The position numbers and the translations under genes were made by a program. Below are positions 5,408 to 43,364 of a stretch of DNA of 43,364 bases, piece by piece. Origin of the DNA: a virus; the IMG/VR virus record IMGVR_UViG_3300033998_000443, positions 1-43,364 of that record; one strand, 5' to 3'. The notes beneath the pieces are model-generated. The model saw only the letters and a program-made list of their open reading frames with translations, did not search any database and was not told the DNA's origin. Position 1 is the first letter of the stretch. Each line of letters opens with the position of its first letter.

Positions 5408-6576
5408 TGGCGGACCACGCAATCCTTTCCGCCTCGGGATCCGAAAAATGGCTGACCTGCACACCCAGCGTCAGACTGGAACAGCAATTTCCTGAAGAAA
5501 CAAGCGAGTATGCGGCGGAGGGAACCTTCGCCCACTCGCTGGCAGAATTGCATTTAAGACATTATCTGAATCCCAATAAAAAAACCAGATACCTTCGAGA
5601 ATTGAAAAAAGCGCAGGAAAATCCATTCTACTCTCAAGAGATGGAAGATCACATCCAAACTTATATAGATATAGCAATTGAAAAAATTAATAAAGCTCGT
5701 GCCAGATCTAATGATGCTGTAATCCTCCTTGAACAAAAACTTGACTTTAGCCCCTGGGTGCCGGAAGGTTTCGGCACCGGCGACCTGGTTATAATTGCAG
5801 ACGGGATTCTGGAGATCGTTGACCTTAAATACGGGAAGGGGGTGCCGGTCTCAGCGGGAAGAAACACACAAATGCGGCTCTACGGCCTGGGCGCTATAAA
5901 TCAGTTTAACTGCCTCTACGACTTTGATACTGTGCGAATGACTATCGTGCAGCCGAGACTTGATAGCATATCTACCGATGAGGTTACAGTAGAAGATCTT
6001 CTGGCCTGGGGAGAAACCTACGTCAAGCCCAGAGCAGAGATGGCATTTAAAGGAGAAGGAGAATTTGTCGCCGGCGAACACTGCCGGTTTTGCCGGGCTC
6101 GGTTCACATGCAGAGCACGGGCAGAGGCAAACCTGGAACTTGCAAAATATGAATTTCGAGAACCGGCGTTGCTAACACATGAAGAAATAGCCGAGATCCT
6201 GTTCAAAGCTGAAGAATTACAATCCTGGGTCACCGATATAAAAACCTATGCACTTGATCAAGCAGAAAATCATGGCGTAAAATTCCCGGGCTGGAAGCTG
6301 GTTGAGGGTAGAAGCAACAGAAAATACGCTGATGAAGACGCCGTAGCCCAAACCCTCATTATCGAAGGCTATAAAGAAGAGGAGATTTACACTAAATCTC
6401 TACTCGGAATCACCGCCATGGAAAAGCTCCTGGGCAAAAAGCGCTTTGAAGAGCTTCTCGGTGAATTCATAATTAAACCCCCTGGAAAACCAACTCTAGT
6501 GCCGGAGAGCGACAAAAGACCAGAAATATCTTCCGTTGCTTCGGCAGTGGAAGATTTTAAAGAAAATATTATATGA
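5407..6576 (+). CDS. DUF2800 protein, PD-(D/E)XK nuclease-like
   Basis: A 389-residue protein matching the DUF2800 family of phage recombination/replication loci. The N-terminus LSASGSEKWLTCTPSVRLE and EGTFAHSLAELHL are typical. GTGDLVI...ILEIVDLKYGKG provides the D...ExK arrangement of the nuclease superfamily, and the C-terminal cluster CRFCRARFTC could bind an iron-sulfur or zinc centre as in AddB/Cas4-like nucleases. A RecB-like exonuclease role is inferred. Start overlaps the previous stop by one base, and the DUF2815 gene follows directly. Confidence 0.85.
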   Translation: MADHAILSASGSEKWLTCTPSVRLEQQFPEETSEYAAEGTFAHSLAELHLRHYLNPNKKTRYLRELKKAQENPFYSQEMEDHIQTYIDIAIEKINKARARSNDAVILLEQKLDFSPWVPEGFGTGDLVIIADGILEIVDLKYGKGVPVSAGRNTQMRLYGLGAINQFNCLYDFDTVRMTIVQPRLDSISTDEVTVEDLLAWGETYVKPRAEMAFKGEGEFVAGEHCRFCRARFTCRARAEANLELAKYEFREPALLTHEEIAEILFKAEELQSWVTDIKTYALDQAENHGVKFPGWKLVEGRSNRKYADEDAVAQTLIIEGYKEEEIYTKSLLGITAMEKLLGKKRFEELLGEFIIKPPGKPTLVPESDKRPEISSVASAVEDFKENII

Positions 6577-6592
6577 GAAGGAGAAATGCGAG

Positions 6593-7147
6593 ATGGCAAT
6601 CACAAATTCAGACACCAAAGTAATTACAGGGAAAGTGAGATTCAGCTACTGCCATATTTTTAAGCCGGTAGCAATATCAGAGGGGCAGGAACCGAAATAC
6701 AGCGTATGCCTGCTCATACCGAAATCAGACAAAGAAACCCTGAAAAAAATTAAAGCAGCAATTGAGGCGGCCAAACAATTAGGCGTCAGCCTATGGGGAG
6801 GAAAGATACCGGCCAATCTAAAGCTACCCCTCCGGGATGGAGATGAAGAAAGACCGGACCAGCCGGAATTCAAAGGCCATTATTTCCTTAACGCTACGTC
6901 AAAACAGAAACCCGGTATCGTGGACAGGCAATTAAATGAAATAATTGACTCCACCGAGGTTTACTCCGGCTGCTACGGGCGGGCAAGCATCAATTTCTAC
7001 CCCTTCAACCAGGCGGGAAACAAAGGAATTGCCTGCGGCCTCAATAACATCCAAAAACTGGCCGACGGAGATTACCTGGGCGGCCGAAGCAGACCTGAAG
7101 ACGATTTCGATGTAGTCGAAGACGAAGAAGAAGACTTCTTAGGTTGA
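6593..7147 (+). CDS. DUF2815 single-stranded DNA-binding protein
   Basis: A 184-residue protein of the DUF2815 family, related to T7 gp2.5-type ssDNA-binding proteins with an OB fold. Visible marks are the core TGKVRFSYCHIFKPVA, YSVCLLIPKSD and YFLNATSKQKP, and a strongly acidic C-terminal tail (DVVEDEEEDFLG) like that used by SSBs to recruit partner proteins. ATG 6593 has AAGGAG nine bases upstream. It lies between the nuclease-like gene and the DNA polymerase, as in many Firmicute phages. Confidence 0.87.
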   Translation: MAITNSDTKVITGKVRFSYCHIFKPVAISEGQEPKYSVCLLIPKSDKETLKKIKAAIEAAKQLGVSLWGGKIPANLKLPLRDGDEERPDQPEFKGHYFLNATSKQKPGIVDRQLNEIIDSTEVYSGCYGRASINFYPFNQAGNKGIACGLNNIQKLADGDYLGGRSRPEDDFDVVEDEEEDFLG

Positions 7148-7153
7148 TGAGCT

Positions 7154-9106
7154 ATGCGTGTATTGGGTATTGATATCGAGACATATTCCAGCGTGGACCT
7201 CGCCAGATGCGGGGTCTACGCCTACACAGAAGCACCTGACTTTGAGATACTTCTTTTCGGATACGCCTTTGATGATGAACCGGTGATGGTCATTGACCTG
7301 GCTCAAGGAGAGCAGCTACCACCAGAAGTTTTTGAAGCCCTCACAAATCCAAGCATAATCAAAACCGCATATAACGCAAATTTCGAAAGAACCTGTATAG
7401 CAAAATATTTCAGAATCCCAACCCCACCGGAACAATGGAGATGTTCCGCAGTCCATGCCCTTACTCTTGGCCTTCCAGGACACCTCGAAGAAGTAGCCAA
7501 AGCCCTCAAACTGGAACAGCAAAAAGACGCTGCGGGTAAAGCGTTAATACGATATTTTTCTATACCCTGTAAACCAACAAAATCAAATGGGATGCGGACC
7601 CGAAACCTTCCGGAACATGCTCCGGAGAAATGGAAAAGATTTATAGAATATTGCCGGCAGGACGTAGAAGTGGAACGGGCCATAAGAAAAACCCTGGAAA
7701 AATATCCGGTCCCAGAAAAAGAATGGAAACTCTGGCAGCTGGATCAACGAATAAACGACAGCGGCGTTATGGTGGACCTGGAGCTGGTCCGAAACGCCAT
7801 AACCTTTGACACTGCATATCAGAAAAGACTTGAAAAAGAAGCCATTACACTCACCGGCCTGCAAAATCCAAAAAGCGTAGCCCAGCTTAAAGCTTGGCTG
7901 GAAGATACAGAAGGTATCGAAATAGAGAGCCTCTCAAAAGAAACAGTGCCAGTGCTATTGGAAAAAGCAGGATGCGAAACAGTTAAAAGAGTGCTGGAAA
8001 TACGACAGGAGATGGCGAAAACCTCGGTCAAAAAATATCAGGCGATAGACAGGGCCGTCTGTCCTGACGGTAGGGTCCGGGGCCTATTGCAATTTTACGG
8101 AGCCAACCGGACAGGTAGATGGGCGGGAAGATTAGTGCAAGTGCAGAACCTTCCGAGAAACTCAATGCCGGACCTTGACCTGGCCAGGCGTTTATTGAAA
8201 GCCGGTGAATATGAACTTTTAGAACTACTATATGATAGTGTGCCGGAGGTCCTTTCTCAGTTGATTCGGACAGCCTTCATTCCATCCCCAAGATCTCGGT
8301 TTATAGTATCCGACTTCTCAGCCATAGAAGCCAGAGTAATCGCCTGGCTTGCGAATGAGAAGTGGAGAATAGATGTGTTCAACTCACATGGAAAAATCTA
8401 TGAAGCTTCAGCCGCTCAGATGTTCAAGGTTCCGGTCGAATCTATTACAAAAGACAACCCACTCCGCCAGAAGGGCAAAATCGCAGAGCTGGCCCTCGGT
8501 TACGGCGGCAGTGTAGGGGCGCTGGTCGCAATGGGGGCTCTCAAAATGGGGCTAACGGAAGAAGAACTTCCAGAACTGGTGGCCACATGGAGAGAGACAA
8601 ACCCAAACATAGTCCAGTTTTGGTGGGACGTGGGAAATGCCGCTATAAAAGCAGTCAAAGAAAAGACAACCGTTCCTTTGCATCACGGCATAGATTTCTC
8701 ATATGAGTCTGGCGGGTTATTCATTCGACTTCCCTCCGGCCGCCGGCTGGCATATGTGAGACCAAAAATCGAGACGGACAAGCGTTTTGGCAACCCTATT
8801 CTTACCTATGAGGGAGTGGAGCAGGGGAAAAAATCCTGGGGCAGGATAAGCACCTACGGCCCAAAACTGGTGGAGAACATCGTTCAGGCCGTTTCCAGAG
8901 ACTGTCTGGCTGAAGCCATGCTCAGGCTAGATGCCGCGGGATATAAAATAGCTTTTCATGTTCACGACGAAGTGATCCTTGATGTGCCCAACGGTTTTGG
9001 CTCCCTGGAAGAAGTATCTGAAATTATGAGCCAACCCATCCCCTGGGCTCCGGGATTACCCCTCAGGGCGGATGGCTTTGAGACTGACTACTATATGAAA
9101 GACTGA
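7154..9106 (+). CDS. Phage family A DNA polymerase (DNA polymerase I-like)
   Basis: Replicates phage DNA. The 650-residue protein has an N-terminal DnaQ-like 3'-5' exonuclease domain (LGIDIETYSS, D7 and E9) and a C-terminal family A polymerase domain. Motif A is SDFSAIEARV with D387, motif B is the KIAELALGYGG helix and motif C is HDE at 604-606. The 5'-nuclease domain of cellular Pol I is absent, as is usual for phage enzymes. It sits seven bases after the SSB gene and 22 bases before the primase/helicase. Confidence 0.96.
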   Translation: MRVLGIDIETYSSVDLARCGVYAYTEAPDFEILLFGYAFDDEPVMVIDLAQGEQLPPEVFEALTNPSIIKTAYNANFERTCIAKYFRIPTPPEQWRCSAVHALTLGLPGHLEEVAKALKLEQQKDAAGKALIRYFSIPCKPTKSNGMRTRNLPEHAPEKWKRFIEYCRQDVEVERAIRKTLEKYPVPEKEWKLWQLDQRINDSGVMVDLELVRNAITFDTAYQKRLEKEAITLTGLQNPKSVAQLKAWLEDTEGIEIESLSKETVPVLLEKAGCETVKRVLEIRQEMAKTSVKKYQAIDRAVCPDGRVRGLLQFYGANRTGRWAGRLVQVQNLPRNSMPDLDLARRLLKAGEYELLELLYDSVPEVLSQLIRTAFIPSPRSRFIVSDFSAIEARVIAWLANEKWRIDVFNSHGKIYEASAAQMFKVPVESITKDNPLRQKGKIAELALGYGGSVGALVAMGALKMGLTEEELPELVATWRETNPNIVQFWWDVGNAAIKAVKEKTTVPLHHGIDFSYESGGLFIRLPSGRRLAYVRPKIETDKRFGNPILTYEGVEQGKKSWGRISTYGPKLVENIVQAVSRDCLAEAMLRLDAAGYKIAFHVHDEVILDVPNGFGSLEEVSEIMSQPIPWAPGLPLRADGFETDYYMKD

Positions 9107-17048: not shown

Positions 17049-17068
17049 AAAAAAAGGCCATTATGGCC
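17049..17068 (-). terminator. Terminator of the hicAB operon (minus strand)
   Basis: Read on the minus strand, GGCCA-TAA-TGGCC is followed by a run of Ts (A run at 17049-17055 on the plus strand). It overlaps the hicB stop. Confidence 0.75.
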
Positions 17069-17471
17069 TATCGTGAATACCGAGTTTTTCTTTTAAAGCA
17101 TATTGAAGCACTTGAGAAAAGTTTATATTCGCTTTTTCCGCTGCTTCATTAAGCCATCGGGGAAGCGTAAGAGTTTTATTTATACTTTTGTTAGCCATTT
17201 CATCACGAACGGGCGGCATATAAACTTCGATAAGGTTTATGAAAGCACCTTTAGGGACTTTAATTTTTTCTGGTGGAGTAGGTATTGGTATATGTTTTTC
17301 TTCTTCTTCAAGATTATAAATAAAAAGTTCCAAAGCATCTTTAGCCATATAAAGTGCTTCTTCAAGATTATCTCCTTCTGTAATACATCCAGGTAAATCA
17401 GGAAAGGTAATTGTATATCCGCCGTTACCGTCTGGGTCAAAGATAGCCGGAAAAATGTATTTATCCGCCAT
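17061..17471 (-). CDS. hicB: HicB family antitoxin
   Basis: Antitoxin of a type II toxin-antitoxin pair. The 136-residue protein has the HicB RNase-H-like fold: FPAIFDPDGNGGYTITFPDL, PGCITEGDNLEEAL and the amphipathic AKDALELFI. A C-terminal ribbon-helix-helix-like segment (LPRWLNEAAEKANINFSQVL) should bind DNA for autoregulation. It lies downstream of hicA with a 47-base gap. Confidence 0.93.
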   Translation of the reverse strand: MADKYIFPAIFDPDGNGGYTITFPDLPGCITEGDNLEEALYMAKDALELFIYNLEEEEKHIPIPTPPEKIKVPKGAFINLIEVYMPPVRDEMANKSINKTLTLPRWLNEAAEKANINFSQVLQYALKEKLGIHDRP

Positions 17472-17518: not shown

Positions 17519-17701
17519 TTATTTAAGCCCTGCTTGCTTTAAGATTGAATTCAATGTCTTTGGTTTTAAGTCTTTATTGTGATACGGGATTTGAATTTTA
17601 TTCGGGTTAGATGGATGAATCATATGTATGTGAGAGCCTTTTTGATTTTTAATTTGCCATCCGTGTTCCTTTAGAAGTTTGATTACTTCTTTCGGCTTCA
17701 T
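17519..17701 (-). CDS. hicA: HicA family toxin (mRNA interferase)
   Basis: A 60-residue dsRBD-fold toxin that cleaves mRNA when not bound by HicB. KEVIKLLKEHGWQIKNQKGSHIHM contains the conserved G-SH motif with the catalytic histidine (GSHIHM), followed by KIQIPYHNKDLKPKTLNSIL; both stretches are typical. ATG 17701 has AGGAGG upstream; a longer frame from 17734 would start inside the promoter. Located between early and late operons, the pair may stabilise the prophage. Confidence 0.93.
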   Translation of the reverse strand: MKPKEVIKLLKEHGWQIKNQKGSHIHMIHPSNPNKIQIPYHNKDLKPKTLNSILKQAGLK

Positions 17702-17725
17702 TTTCCCTTCCTCCTGACAATTATA

Positions 17726-17754
17726 TAATAACACATGTTATTTACACGTGTCAA
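17726..17754 (-). promoter_or_regulatory. hicAB promoter with operator
   Basis: On the minus strand TTGACA (17754-17749) is followed after 17 bases by TTATTA (17731-17726), ahead of hicA. The spacer holds near-palindromic half-sites ACACATGT (17731-17738) and ACACGTGT (17744-17751), a fit for autoregulation by HicB. Confidence 0.7.
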
Positions 17755-37373: not shown

Positions 37374-37703
37374 GTGCAAATAATTGAGCAGAATGAAGGT
37401 GCAAAAATTGGCTACACGGTGGAAGGAGCACGAATTACCTTCGACGGCAAGCTGACGGTAGACCTGGAAGCAGAACAGGAGGATGTGCAGAAAATTGTAG
37501 ATGTCTCGCTGGACAACGAAGGTAATCTAATCCAAGGCGTGGGCCAATGGTATGTAGCCAATATAATTATCCCGCCCAGGGAATACTCCATAATCGAAAA
37601 CGAGAACGGTGAGCAGACGATAACGGCCTTACCCGTAAACAGGGAAAAGGTCGTTTTAATTTTGTGGACTTTACCTAACAACAATAATGGAGGTGCTTAC
37701 TAA
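37374..37703 (+). CDS. Hypothetical tail protein upstream of the DGR target
   Basis: A 109-residue protein from GTG 37374. It is beta-rich (GAKIGYTVEGARITFDGKLT, YVANIIIPPREYSIIENENG). Its TAA shares a base with the ATG of the next gene, so both are translated together. It may be a chaperone or connector for the variable adhesin. Confidence 0.65.
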   Translation: MQIIEQNEGAKIGYTVEGARITFDGKLTVDLEAEQEDVQKIVDVSLDNEGNLIQGVGQWYVANIIIPPREYSIIENENGEQTITALPVNREKVVLILWTLPNNNNGGAY

Positions 37704-38842
37704 TGGCATTTGTATTTTCGATTAAGGATAGCTATAGGGCTGCCGTGGAAGCTGCCAGTGGTGGCAAAAACACGGTATTATATGATGACCTTGGGTATCC
37801 ATCTATCATGACCATAGTTCCCCGCTATAAACTGAGCGATATCGACCCAACATGGCCTTCCGATCCTCATCCGGCCTTCATTGTTAATGACCGGATAATC
37901 GACGAAATTTTTACCTCAAAGTTCCAGAACGTAGTGGTGGGCGGTCGAGCGCTTTCCCTCCCCATGCAGGACCCGAAGGTCTATGTGAACTTTGACCAGG
38001 CCAGGGGCTACTGCACCGCCAAGGGCAAGGGCTGGCACTTAATGACAAACGCTGAGTGGGCCGCGATTGCCCTTTGGTGCTGGAAGAACGGCTTCCTACC
38101 GCGGGGTAATAACTATGCCGGAGCCGACCACGGAGCACTGTATGAGAATGGCCGCAAGACCTACGACTGGATTCTCACTTACAACTGGAATAATCGGGCC
38201 TATAAGATTGACGGCGCGAATTATTACCATGTAGGCCGGGTGGCCACGGGGAGCGGGCCCGCCTCCTGGTACCACGACAACACCCCCTTTGGCATTGCTG
38301 ACCTGAACGGCAACGTTTGGGAGTGGGTCGACGGACTGAAACTCCACGATGGCAAGATATACGTCCATGGCGCCGGCGGAGTGGCCCAGAACAACTTCGA
38401 GACCCAGAACAACAGTCATGATGTGACCGGCTGGGTGGATACCGGAGCATTCTTCGACAGCACCGTGGCGAGCGATACGACTCAGACAGACCACGAGATA
38501 GCCGGCGATCCCATTTTAAGCCCGGACCGCACTAACCCCATGTATACCACGGACCCGACAACTGACGCCTATTACGGGTGGGAATTCGTTAGCTTTGAAA
38601 GTCTGACTGCCGAAACCGGTTTCACGCCCCCAGCCATGTTAAAACATCTGGCTATCCAGCCCCCAGGTACCGGTCTAGGTGGCGACGGCCTCTGGGTGCG
38701 TAACTACGGCGAGCGCCTCCCGATCCGGGGCGGGACTTGGGCCAATGGTTCCCATGCGGGGGTCTTCGCCCTGAACCTGCACCGCGCCCGCTCGCGCTCG
38801 GACAGCAGCCTCGGCTTCCGCGCGGCTTTTATTCCCGTGTAA
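37703..38842 (+). CDS. DGR variable protein: C-type-lectin/FGE-fold tail adhesin
   Basis: The 379-residue target of the retroelement, probably the receptor-binding tip. N-terminus (about 1-90) should attach it to the tail. From about 95 it has the FGE-sulfatase/CLec fold: WHLMTNAEWAAIALWCWKNG, DLNGNVWEWVDGLK and the C-terminal RLPIRGGTWANGSHAGVFAL. Ten residues carry template-directed substitutions: 337, 345, 347, 351, 360, 361, 365, 368, 369 and 370. Constant scaffold residues of the fold (W346, N348, F355, L357, F372) are untouched. GGAGGTG precedes the ATG. Confidence 0.95.
   Translation: MAFVFSIKDSYRAAVEAASGGKNTVLYDDLGYPSIMTIVPRYKLSDIDPTWPSDPHPAFIVNDRIIDEIFTSKFQNVVVGGRALSLPMQDPKVYVNFDQARGYCTAKGKGWHLMTNAEWAAIALWCWKNGFLPRGNNYAGADHGALYENGRKTYDWILTYNWNNRAYKIDGANYYHVGRVATGSGPASWYHDNTPFGIADLNGNVWEWVDGLKLHDGKIYVHGAGGVAQNNFETQNNSHDVTGWVDTGAFFDSTVASDTTQTDHEIAGDPILSPDRTNPMYTTDPTTDAYYGWEFVSFESLTAETGFTPPAMLKHLAIQPPGTGLGGDGLWVRNYGERLPIRGGTWANGSHAGVFALNLHRARSRSDSSLGFRAAFIPV
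38711..38828 (+). repeat. DGR variable repeat (VR)
   Basis: Aligns without gaps to TR 39276-39393. Twelve of 118 positions differ: 38711, 38736, 38742, 38753, 38780, 38783, 38784, 38795, 38796, 38805, 38808 and 38810. All are A in TR (seven A to C, five A to G). The last 18 bases (38811-38828) are identical, contain no A and form the probable IMH. Confidence 0.96.
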
Positions 38843-38868
38843 TCTGGGTTCTGAAACCTGAAATCTGT

Positions 38869-38890
38869 TGGGCGGGCGACAGCCCGCCCA
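38869..38890 (+). promoter_or_regulatory. DGR target-recognition hairpin
   Basis: TGGGCGGGC-GACA-GCCCGCCCA, a perfect nine-base GC-rich stem with a four-base loop fitting the GRNA pattern reported for DGR hairpins. It lies 40 bases after VR and 27 bases after the target stop. No T run follows, arguing against a terminator. Confidence 0.82.
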
Positions 38891-38919
38891 CCCAGTTCTT
38901 GAACACGGGGGTAAAAGCC

Positions 38920-39255
38920 TTGGCTGAGGAGTTGAAGGTTCTACAAAAAACCTACGACATGATCCAATACGGCTATATTTGCCTGCGGCAGTACCCCAAG
39001 AGAGAGAAGCACACTTTGGCGGCCGAGACCAAGCGGGCCATGTTTGAGTTGCTAAAGGCCATCATCATGGCCAATAGGCGATACTACAAGAAGAACGCAA
39101 TCCAGGAGGCTGACGTCCAGTTAGAAATCCTCCGCCATTATATACGGCTTGCAAAGGACCTGGAGTTTCTACCCATCAAAAAATACGAGAACTGGTCTAA
39201 GATGACCACAGAAATAGGGAAAATGATTGGCGGCTGGCTTAAGTCAGCCCGTTAA
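38920..39255 (+). CDS. avd: DGR accessory variability determinant (Avd)
   Basis: A 111-residue protein from TTG 38920 with GGGGGT nine bases upstream. MAEELKVLQKTYDMIQYGYI, LRQYPKREKHTLAAETKRAM and EILRHYIRLAKDLEFLPIKK match the four-helix-bundle Avd family, and it is strongly basic. Family knowledge: Avd forms a pentamer that binds the RT and TR RNA and is needed for cDNA priming. A frame from 38737 lies inside VR and is not a credible start. Confidence 0.93.
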   Translation: MAEELKVLQKTYDMIQYGYICLRQYPKREKHTLAAETKRAMFELLKAIIMANRRYYKKNAIQEADVQLEILRHYIRLAKDLEFLPIKKYENWSKMTTEIGKMIGGWLKSAR

Positions 39256-39275
39256 TCATTTTGGGGAGAAAGCCA

Positions 39276-39393
39276 AAGCGCCTCCCGATCCGGGGCGGGA
39301 ATTGGGACAATGGTTCCAATGCGGGGGTCTTCGCCCTGAACCTGAACAACGCCCGCTCGAACTCGGACAACAACATCGGCTTCCGCGCGGCTT
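39276..39393 (+). repeat. DGR template repeat (TR)
   Basis: Template for mutagenic reverse transcription. 118 bases with 24 adenines, twelve of which are altered in VR. It is rich in AAC and AAT codons at target positions (reading NWDNGSNAGV and NLNNARSNSDNNIG in the VR frame), the design that gives the broadest amino-acid range on A mutagenesis. Non-coding, between avd and RT. Confidence 0.96.
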
Positions 39394-39575
39394 CACCCTG
39401 TAGCCAGAAGTGGCCGGCTTACGGGCCGGCCTCCAGCGCGCAGGGGTAAAGGGGCTTTCTTCCCTGCCGCGCCCCGATATCGGGACCGGCAAAAAACTGA
39501 ATTGCCGGGAAGGCAGTTAGTAACCCGCGAGGGCGAAGGGTGCCACGCCCGGCGCCTCTTTTTAGAGGTGATGAC
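39394..39575 (+). ncRNA. DGR RNA spacer region downstream of TR
   Basis: 182 bases between TR and RT without a gene. It can fold: GGCCGGC (39412-39418) pairs with GCCGGCC (39425-39431) across TTACGG, and GCGCGCAGGG near 39437 pairs imperfectly with CCCTGCCGCGC near 39465. In BPP-1 the equivalent spacer binds RT-Avd and primes cDNA synthesis. Such a role here is inferred. Other gap parts (39256-39275) show nothing. Confidence 0.65.
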
Positions 39576-40688
39576 ATGAAGAAACTTAAGGGGCTATATC
39601 CTAAGATTTATGATTTCGAGAACCTTTTGGAGGCATACAAGAAGGCACGTAAACGCAAAAGGTTCCGACACGAAGTCCTGCCTTTCACCCGTAACCTTGA
39701 AGAAAACCTGATCAACATACAAAACGAGCTGATCTGGAAAACCTACAAGGTAGGCAGGTATAGGGAGTTCTTCATCTCCGATCCGAAGAAACGGCTAATT
39801 ATGGCATTGCCATTTAAGGACAGGGTGGTTCAATGGGCCATATACAGGGTGTTGAACCCGATCTTGGAGCGGCGCTATATCTTGGATAGTTATGCCTGTA
39901 GGATAAGTTGCGGCCCTCAACGGGCAGCCGATCGACTGCAATACTGGCTTCGCTACTTGGACAGAAGGTATCCAAGAATTTATGTTCTGAAGCTGGATAT
40001 AAGTAAGTATTTCTACCGGGTGGACCACGACATTCTAATGGGTATCTTGCGGCGGATTATAGCCGACAAGGATCTCCTCTGGCTTTTAGAGACCATTATC
40101 CGGTCTGAGGATACGAAGTTCGGTATTCCCCTGGGCGACCACGGCTTCGAGTGCGAGAGGGTCGGGGGAGTGGGTATGCCTATAGGCAACCTGACAAGTC
40201 AAATGTTTGCCAACCTTTATCTAAACGAGCTTGATCAGTATGCCAAGCATGTCCTGAGAATTCAACATTATATCCGATATATGGATGACGTGGTTATTTC
40301 ACATCCGAATAAGAAATATTTATGGCAGCTTAAAGATGAGATTGGTACATTCCTGGAAGACCGTTTGCACTTGGTACTCAATAACAAGACCACCGTCCGA
40401 ACGGTAGACCAAGGCGTCGATTTCTGCGGGTATCGAATATGGCCCACCCACCGCAAGCTCCGCAAGAGTACGGCCCTCAAAATGAAACGGCGTCTGAAAT
40501 ACCTTCAGCAGGCCTATGCGCGGGGTGAGGTCAGCTTTGATGAGGTGAACGCCACCGTGCAGAGCTATCTCGGGCTGCTCAAGCATTGCAATAGTTATAA
40601 CTTGCGGAAGAAACTTTTTGAGACCTTGGTGTTTATTCGAGGAGGGGATACCGGTGAACAAGACGATAATAACTTGGCCGGAAGGTGA
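39576..40688 (+). CDS. DGR reverse transcriptase
   Basis: Copies TR RNA into A-mutagenised cDNA. 370 residues from ATG 39576 with GAGGTG upstream; a GTG at 39540 lacks a ribosome site. RT motifs: RLIMALPFKDRVVQWAIYRV, catalytic YVLKLDISKYF, DGR-specific IGNLTSQ at 203-209 (in place of the QGxxxSP of group II and retroviral RTs), catalytic YMDD at 235-238 and FCGYRIWPTHRKLRK. No maturase or endonuclease domain. Normal length for a DGR RT. Confidence 0.96.
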   Translation: MKKLKGLYPKIYDFENLLEAYKKARKRKRFRHEVLPFTRNLEENLINIQNELIWKTYKVGRYREFFISDPKKRLIMALPFKDRVVQWAIYRVLNPILERRYILDSYACRISCGPQRAADRLQYWLRYLDRRYPRIYVLKLDISKYFYRVDHDILMGILRRIIADKDLLWLLETIIRSEDTKFGIPLGDHGFECERVGGVGMPIGNLTSQMFANLYLNELDQYAKHVLRIQHYIRYMDDVVISHPNKKYLWQLKDEIGTFLEDRLHLVLNNKTTVRTVDQGVDFCGYRIWPTHRKLRKSTALKMKRRLKYLQQAYARGEVSFDEVNATVQSYLGLLKHCNSYNLRKKLFETLVFIRGGDTGEQDDNNLAGR

Positions 40689-40693
40689 CGCAT

Positions 40694-40924
40694 ATGCCTG
40701 GTTCTGAAATTGCACAATACGGAATAGGCTTTTTTGCTGTAGCAGGTCTGATCTTCATAGTGGCTCGCTATTTTGATGGCAAAAACGACAATAACTTAGC
40801 CGAGGTAATAGAAAACAACACGAAAGCCCTTGAGCAGGTGACGGCAGTGGTGCAGGCTATCCAGTTGTCTCTCACACGGCAGGAGGCCAAGATTGACGAG
40901 CTTCTCGAGAGGGCAAGGCGGTGA
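40694..40924 (+). CDS. BhlA/UviB-like holin candidate
   Basis: A 76-residue protein from ATG 40694 (GGAAGGTG upstream; GTG 40685 possible). One N-terminal membrane segment (YGIGFFAVAGLIFIVARYF) then a charged coiled coil (EVIENNTKALEQVTAVVQAI). This matches the BhlA/UviB holin-like layout. First gene of the lysis cassette, directly after the RT. Confidence 0.75.
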   Translation: MPGSEIAQYGIGFFAVAGLIFIVARYFDGKNDNNLAEVIENNTKALEQVTAVVQAIQLSLTRQEAKIDELLERARR

Positions 40925-42440: not shown

Positions 42441-42476
42441 GCCATGGGAAGCAGAACCCCCATGGCTTTATTTTTT
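42441..42476 (+). terminator. Late operon terminator 2
   Basis: GCCATGGG and CCCATGGC form an eight-base stem (42441-42448, 42459-42466) followed by TTTATTTTTT. The T run overlaps the stop of the convergent SWIM gene. Confidence 0.85.
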
Positions 42477-43364
42477 ATTGCACCGATTACAGTTATATTT
42501 ATTAAGCAACGCAGTAACCTCATCATCGGGAAATTCATAACCCGAATAATTAGAGGATTTATAACCGGACCCGTCATACTTCAAATTAATTGAAGATATA
42601 AACATCGCACCAGCAGGGTAAGAAACAATCTTTTCACCATTAAAATATTCTTCATTGTCATATTTTCGGTGAAGATATGTATATAGTTGCCTTTTTGTTT
42701 TATTATAAATTGGGTTCAACTGCAAAACATATGCATCTGAACAAATAGAGGATATTTTATCGGGTATATTTACAATACACCATTGAATAAGATTCTTAAG
42801 GGACATATTCTTTTTGAAATTATCAATATTTAGTGCTGAAATTCTTTTGTTCAGTTCATTGCGTGGAAATATTTCCAATAGCCTTTCAGGATCTTGAACG
42901 CATCGAAGGATACCAGAATCTATCAACTCTGAAAATTCATCATTACGCATAACACCAACAATCTCTTTCTTGTGATACAAATGTTCTAAAAGAAAGGTTT
43001 TTAAAGCAATCTGTGCTTCACTGGAAAGAGCTTCAATGTTAGATACTGATTCTGCAAGATTCAAACTATCGGCAGGTGGAGGGTTTTTGATCTTCCTTGA
43101 ATCTGTTTCTGCGGAAAGATTAATCATTTGTAGTTCGATTGCTAATCGGTACATATGCTTACATGGTAAACGCCGCCTTATAAAGTCAATACAAGTGCAT
43201 TCATTTAAAGTAGTATTATAACAACCATGCGAACCGCTAAATTGACCGCAACAATTTTCTTTATCAATATGTAACGGAGTGCATTCAGCTTTCCTTGCGC
43301 TTGCAATTCGTTTTTGCTGATCAATAGATTCATGAACTGTCGAATCCCATTTACCGAAATTCAT
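42468..43364 (-). CDS. SWIM zinc-finger protein
   Basis: A 298-residue protein whose ATG is at the very edge of the window, so the true start may lie beyond it. The SWIM motif is C56-x-C58-x9-C68-x-H70 (ECTCIDFIRRRLPCKHMYRL), a zinc-binding module for DNA or protein contacts. A second Cys set lies near residues 38-48 (CCG...GCY) and a CNRC pair near the end. The rest is unrecognised. AT-rich, convergent with the lysis genes; phage cargo or first host gene. Confidence 0.8.
   Translation of the reverse strand: MNFGKWDSTVHESIDQQKRIASARKAECTPLHIDKENCCGQFSGSHGCYNTTLNECTCIDFIRRRLPCKHMYRLAIELQMINLSAETDSRKIKNPPPADSLNLAESVSNIEALSSEAQIALKTFLLEHLYHKKEIVGVMRNDEFSELIDSGILRCVQDPERLLEIFPRNELNKRISALNIDNFKKNMSLKNLIQWCIVNIPDKISSICSDAYVLQLNPIYNKTKRQLYTYLHRKYDNEEYFNGEKIVSYPAGAMFISSINLKYDGSGYKSSNYSGYEFPDDEVTALLNKYNCNRCNKK

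Follow-up and report, generated by a model that had tools for sequence, protein, structure and literature searches.

A BPP-1-type diversity-generating retroelement with a TaqVP-like target gene in a contractile-tailed phage

The diversity-generating retroelement (DGR) of phage BPP-1 has the order mtd, avd, template repeat (TR) and brt, the last encoding its reverse transcriptase (RT). Hairpins with a GRNA loop are needed for BPP-1 retrohoming, and eight phage DGRs, including two in Desulfotomaculum, have been described with such a hairpin at 4–34 bp from the variable repeat (VR) (PMC3240598). The BPP-1 system has also been reconstructed with a reporter VR in a laboratory strain of E. coli (PMC12875486). 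A DGR borne by a prophage of Thermus aquaticus Y51MC23 has the order variable protein, avd, TR and RT, and the variable residues of its target, TaqVP (crystal structure 5VF4), are solvent-exposed (PMC6328139).

The locus described here lies in a viral DNA of 43,364 nucleotides (IMG/VR record IMGVR_UViG_3300033998_000443), referred to below in its full length as the window. Between positions 37703 and 40688 of the plus strand, a target gene containing the VR is followed by a hairpin, avd, the TR, an RT-14 structured RNA and the RT gene (Table 1). This is almost certainly a complete BPP-1-type DGR of a temperate, contractile-tailed phage: the RT is placed with DGR RTs, TR and VR differ at adenines only, the VR is part of the target coding sequence, Avd and a GRNA hairpin are present, and the VR varies at A-sites among relatives. 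A preliminary description of this DNA had recognised four parts in the order VR, avd, TR and RT, with a C-type-lectin/FGE-like target, a basic Avd and an RT with YMDD and IGNLTSQ. All four were found where it had placed them, and its characterisation of each gene product was upheld. The hairpin and the RT-14 RNA are additions to that description.

Table 1. Features of the DGR cassette, with positions in the window
Feature	Position	Strand	Description	Evidence
Target gene	37703..38842	+	379 aa, TaqVP-like C-type-lectin (FGE subtype) variable protein	PF03781, phrog_2889, 5vf4 phmmer 9.7e-70, AF2 and Foldseek
VR	38712..38828	+	Last part of target gene; 23 A-sites in 13 codons	117-bp repeat of TR
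Hairpin/cruciform candidate	38869..38890	+	9-bp stem, GACA (GRNA) loop, 40 nt after VR	Consensus from PMC3240598
avd	38920..39255	+	111 aa, TTG start	NF033474 4.1e-36, above cut-off; PF22296; phrog_3206 Avd
TR	39277..39393	+	117-bp repeat	
RT-14 structured RNA (RF02921)	39391..39552	+		65.7 bits, gathering 48.1, full model
DGR RT	39576..40688	+	370 aa	phrog_1423 5e-146; 8ub7 5.5e-46; tree and motifs

With BPP-1, the cassette shares the order of parts, the RT motifs, Avd, the GRNA-loop hairpin and A-specific changes in the VR. It differs in phage type, in its repeat (annotated as 134 bp in BPP-1) and in its target, which is TaqVP-like rather than Mtd-like (Foldseek E against Mtd, 4e-3). The T. 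aquaticus cassette is alike in the order of its parts and in being carried by a prophage. Its target is homologous over the whole length, has the same fold and likewise bears the VR at its C-terminus.

Repeats, RNA elements and reverse transcriptase

The two repeats are 91% identical, and all 11 of their mismatches (11/11) stand at adenines of the TR. Given that 23 of the 117 bases are adenines, the probability of this is 1.6e-9, and a chance origin of the repeat is ruled out. No further TR or VR copy was found in the 43,364-base record, and a scan of viral contigs for the VR/TR pattern returned just three more loci. Across 131 related loci, 1435 of 1459 VR/TR mismatches are at TR adenines, a count that is partly circular because the pairs had been prefiltered for at least 60% of mismatches at A. 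None of the 13 VR codons that contain a TR adenine can turn into a stop codon, and about 1e13 protein variants are possible.

The VRs of two related loci break the reading frame. In L003 (4133–4248), the VR is one base short in a CCC run when compared with its own TR, which shifts the frame of the target end; this is either a dead variant or a sequencing error. The VR of L008, upstream of an RT at 2469, has two apparent single-base, frame-breaking deletions relative to its own TR, possibly also from sequencing error.

The hairpin behind the VR has a GC-rich stem. Its distance from the VR is slightly above the published range and equals the median of the related loci. The same scan recovers the BPP-1 hairpin, which has an 8-bp stem and a GAAA loop only 4 nt after the VR. 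Within 150 bases after the VR, 84 of the 131 related loci have a stem of 6 bp or more closed by a 4-nt loop, which is GRNA in 76 of the 84; among 501 control stretches, 25 have such a structure, two of them with GRNA.

The interval between TR and RT matches the Rfam family RT-14 over positions 1–144 of the 144-position model, and this RNA is present in 14 of 15 relatives. Since folding of the RNA downstream of the TR gives by itself only z = -2.3, the support for structure comes from the Rfam match. The RNA is probably the 3' part of the template RNA.

Avd has a pI of 9.7 and meets the NCBIfam DGR-Avd equivalog. A comparison of Avd with solved structures gave no match. The mechanically called RT reading frame opens at 39540, a point from which the first bases (39540–39552) fall within the RT-14 match, while homologues begin at the MKKL start at 39576.

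The best solved relative of the RT is 8ub7 ('Reverse transcriptase'), whose aligned residues are those of the BPP-1 bRT as translated from NC_005357; group II RTs are far behind (2e-17). Motif 4 reads IGNLTSQ in place of PQGxxxSP. A tree was built from the RTs of BPP-1, BalMu-1, Bacteroides phage p00, ANMV-1, Lagaffe, ACA2 and the related loci, together with four group II RTs. It separates DGR RTs from group II RTs with a support of 100/100 and places the RT of the window on the DGR side, the clade in which the preliminary description had expected it. Within the DGR side, the branching order is unsure owing to the long branches of BPP-1 and p00. The RT also matches bRT at R74 and I181, with R and I at the corresponding sites; these residues are associated with adenine infidelity.

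Like any RT, this one gives weak to moderate scores to other families, and it could in principle be a group II intron, retron or defence RT next to a coincidental repeat. Its matches to the NCBIfam DRT and retron models, however, are all far below the curated cut-offs. An origin from any of these families is ruled out by the cut-offs and the motifs, and for group II also by the tree; moreover, the VR/TR mismatches are A-only, and Avd and the RT-14 RNA sit between the repeat and the RT. The chance that such an RT is present is accordingly negligible, and the enzyme is read as a DGR RT.

The target protein and its phage

Over its full length, the target is homologous to TaqVP. A structure prediction, which the preliminary description had put forward as a check, produced an AF2 model with a mean pLDDT of 93 and the TaqVP fold (Foldseek against 5vf4: E 4e-40, TM 0.83–0.86). 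Homology and predicted fold thus both support a C-type-lectin/FGE-like protein. The two targets are 37–38% identical in the structural alignment, T. aquaticus belongs to another bacterial phylum, and the comparison is one of cassettes.

Judged by gene position and fold, the target is probably a receptor-binding adhesin of the tail or baseplate, and a location in the virion would agree with gene order and with its relatives. The gene sits directly after the baseplate J and I genes and ahead of the lysis genes, and the C-terminus of the protein also matches a tail-protein phrog (3.5e-16). Both of these points argue against the alternative that it is a binding protein of another kind, displayed or injected, or else an enzyme of the FGE/SUMF type that is encoded behind the tail genes by chance. 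That alternative draws on the Pfam domain being named FGE-sulfatase, on a whole-protein phrog without assigned function and on TaqVP being a single-domain monomer (PMC6328139). The authors of the TaqVP structure, however, hold FGE activity to be unlikely (PMC6328139), and the targets of viral DGRs are mostly tail proteins (PMC8144416). A role other than that of an adhesin is therefore rather improbable.

The head genes of the phage are of the lambda type (terminase gpA, portal, gpD and capsid E), while the tail genes are contractile and of the P2 type (sheath, tube FII, gpD hub, J and gpI); the earlier typing as a P2 tail with a lambda head is borne out by these matches. A temperate phage is indicated by an integrase and a repressor that are encoded at the left end of the window. 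Among named organisms, the closest match to the cassette lies in a prophage of Desulfovirgula thermocuniculi, a member of the class Clostridia. The closest named relatives of the cassette make a Clostridia-type host probable, but the cassette evidently passes from phage to phage and does not determine the host: the tail genes beside it are only 27–56% alike to those of the Desulfovirgula prophage. Neither sheath nor terminase pointed to a particular host, as the best sheath relatives were found in Vibrio phages and no terminase match reached 60%.

Three further features of the window lie outside the cassette or at its edge. Before the terminase, the minus-strand genes at 17061–17471 and 17519–17734 look like a HicB–HicA toxin–antitoxin pair, with a weak HicA-like match only. 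The RT end and the next gene contain a short near-repeat (GACGATAATAACTTGGCCG at about 40661–40680 and AACGACAATAACTTAGCCGA at 40784–40803), possibly a small duplication. A SWIM zinc-finger reading frame (42468–43364, minus strand) runs to the end of the window and belongs either to host flank or to phage cargo.

VR turnover and apparent exchange of the cassette

Activity was assessed in pairs of close relatives whose flanks have diverged by 2–3%, without any selection for mismatches at A. Between the window and L003, 16 of the 23 A-sites of the VR differ, compared to 1/93 other VR positions, 0/23 A-sites of the TR and 10/447 flanking positions. The comparison with L163 is similar, with differences at 15/23 A-sites, 0/94 other VR positions and 10/381 flanking positions. 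The excess at A-sites is strong (Fisher, about 2e-13), and the variation among relatives on which the preliminary description had made its reading depend is thus concentrated at A-sites. At the level of sequence comparison, this shows that the VR has changed almost to saturation over a period in which its surroundings diverged by 2–3%, and that the DGR was recently active in the lineage.

From the mechanism known for DGRs, we infer that this very copy may be active now. It might instead be intact in sequence but inactive, with a VR that stems from past mutagenesis and is now inherited unchanged, as must be the case in relatives without avd, TR and RT. Loss does occur in the group, where two contigs (L164 and L165) retain a VR without the machinery, and a single copy of this genome entered the comparison. 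On the other hand, this copy retains an intact RT, Avd, TR, RT-14 RNA and hairpin, each of them also conserved in relatives, and the A-sites of its VR differ almost to saturation from those of close relatives whose flanks differ by 2–3%. Inactivity of this copy is considered unlikely, and an active DGR is the preferred reading.

In an active DGR of this kind, a transcript with the TR and the RT-14 structured RNA would be copied by a complex of RT and Avd, which would misincorporate opposite template adenines. The mutagenised cDNA would then replace the VR at the end of the target gene, presumably guided by the matching 3' end of the VR and by the hairpin behind it. Up to about 1e13 variants, spread over 13 codons, could in this way appear on the ligand-binding face of the C-type-lectin adhesin. 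cDNA priming, retrohoming, the roles of the hairpin and the RT-14 RNA, and receptor binding are all proposed here from the known mechanism.

The relatives also differ in how much of the cassette they share. Between the window and both L003 and L163, identity is 45–71% in most of the target and 90–99% from about 38750 through avd. With L003, it is 94–99% through the TR and RT-14 region, then 75–88% in the RT and 63% beyond. In both comparisons, the neighbouring tail genes have diverged far more than the VR-avd(-TR) segment. The 900 bp from 38680 have a GC content of 0.576; in the 900-bp stretches to the left, the mean is 0.434 and the highest value 0.516. This suggests, as far as sequence can tell, that diverged phages have exchanged the cassette and that one breakpoint lies within the target gene. 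For DGR targets, Roux and colleagues have proposed intragenic recombination (PMC8144416).

In L164 and L165 (IMG/VR 3300033998_000366 and 3300033985_000247), the target with its VR and the hairpin is kept. A short way past the hairpin, the sequence resumes with the final 30 RT residues, and avd, TR and the rest of the RT are gone (L165, 1268–1560). Neither an intact RT nor a TR was found on these two contigs, which are fragments of phages that might carry a DGR elsewhere. They have one VR in common, which differs from the TR of the window only at A-sites; given this shared VR, they may represent one lineage.

A more speculative scenario for this phage group, put forward only tentatively, is that the segment of about 38680–39600 (target end, avd, TR and RT-14) travels as a matched unit between diverged phages. 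With a breakpoint just before the VR, it would graft the diversifier onto the phage's own adhesin, and some lineages (L164 and L165) would later have deleted avd, TR and RT, freezing one selected VR. If so, phages would acquire and shed the DGR as an explore-then-fix module.

Among the other related loci, L013 has 22 CRISPR-DR2 repeats (6262–7748) shortly after its DGR RT on a 38.7-kb viral contig, either a phage-borne array or host flank.

Comparison with described DGRs

The cassette of the Desulfovirgula thermocuniculi DSM 16036 prophage (L083; L004 in IMG/VR) has the same layout, including the RT-14 RNA, and its target and RT are 92% and 86% identical to those of the window. The divergence of the adjoining tail genes points to a different phage backbone. 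More distant RTs, 51–60% identical to that of the window, are those of Faecalibacterium phage FP_Lagaffe and Bacillus phage BalMu-1, which belong to different phage groups. The annotation of FP_Lagaffe places a SUMF1/FGE-family target and Avd ahead of the RT; the BalMu-1 record carries no DGR annotation for any part. Among contractile-tailed phages, a DGR was already known in Pseudoalteromonas phage ACA2 (Peduoviridae).

The DGR itself is therefore ordinary: the same target family is known from the T. aquaticus prophage, and DGRs are also known in contractile-tailed and Clostridia phages and prophages. The system by itself leaves the picture of how DGRs work unchanged. Its relatives provide natural test material, with near-identical TRs beside nearly saturated VRs, an apparent unit of exchange and a VR left stranded by a deletion in the cassette. 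To the DGRs of contractile-tailed Bacillota phages, the cassette is a well-formed addition, with both a hairpin and a recognisable structured RNA.
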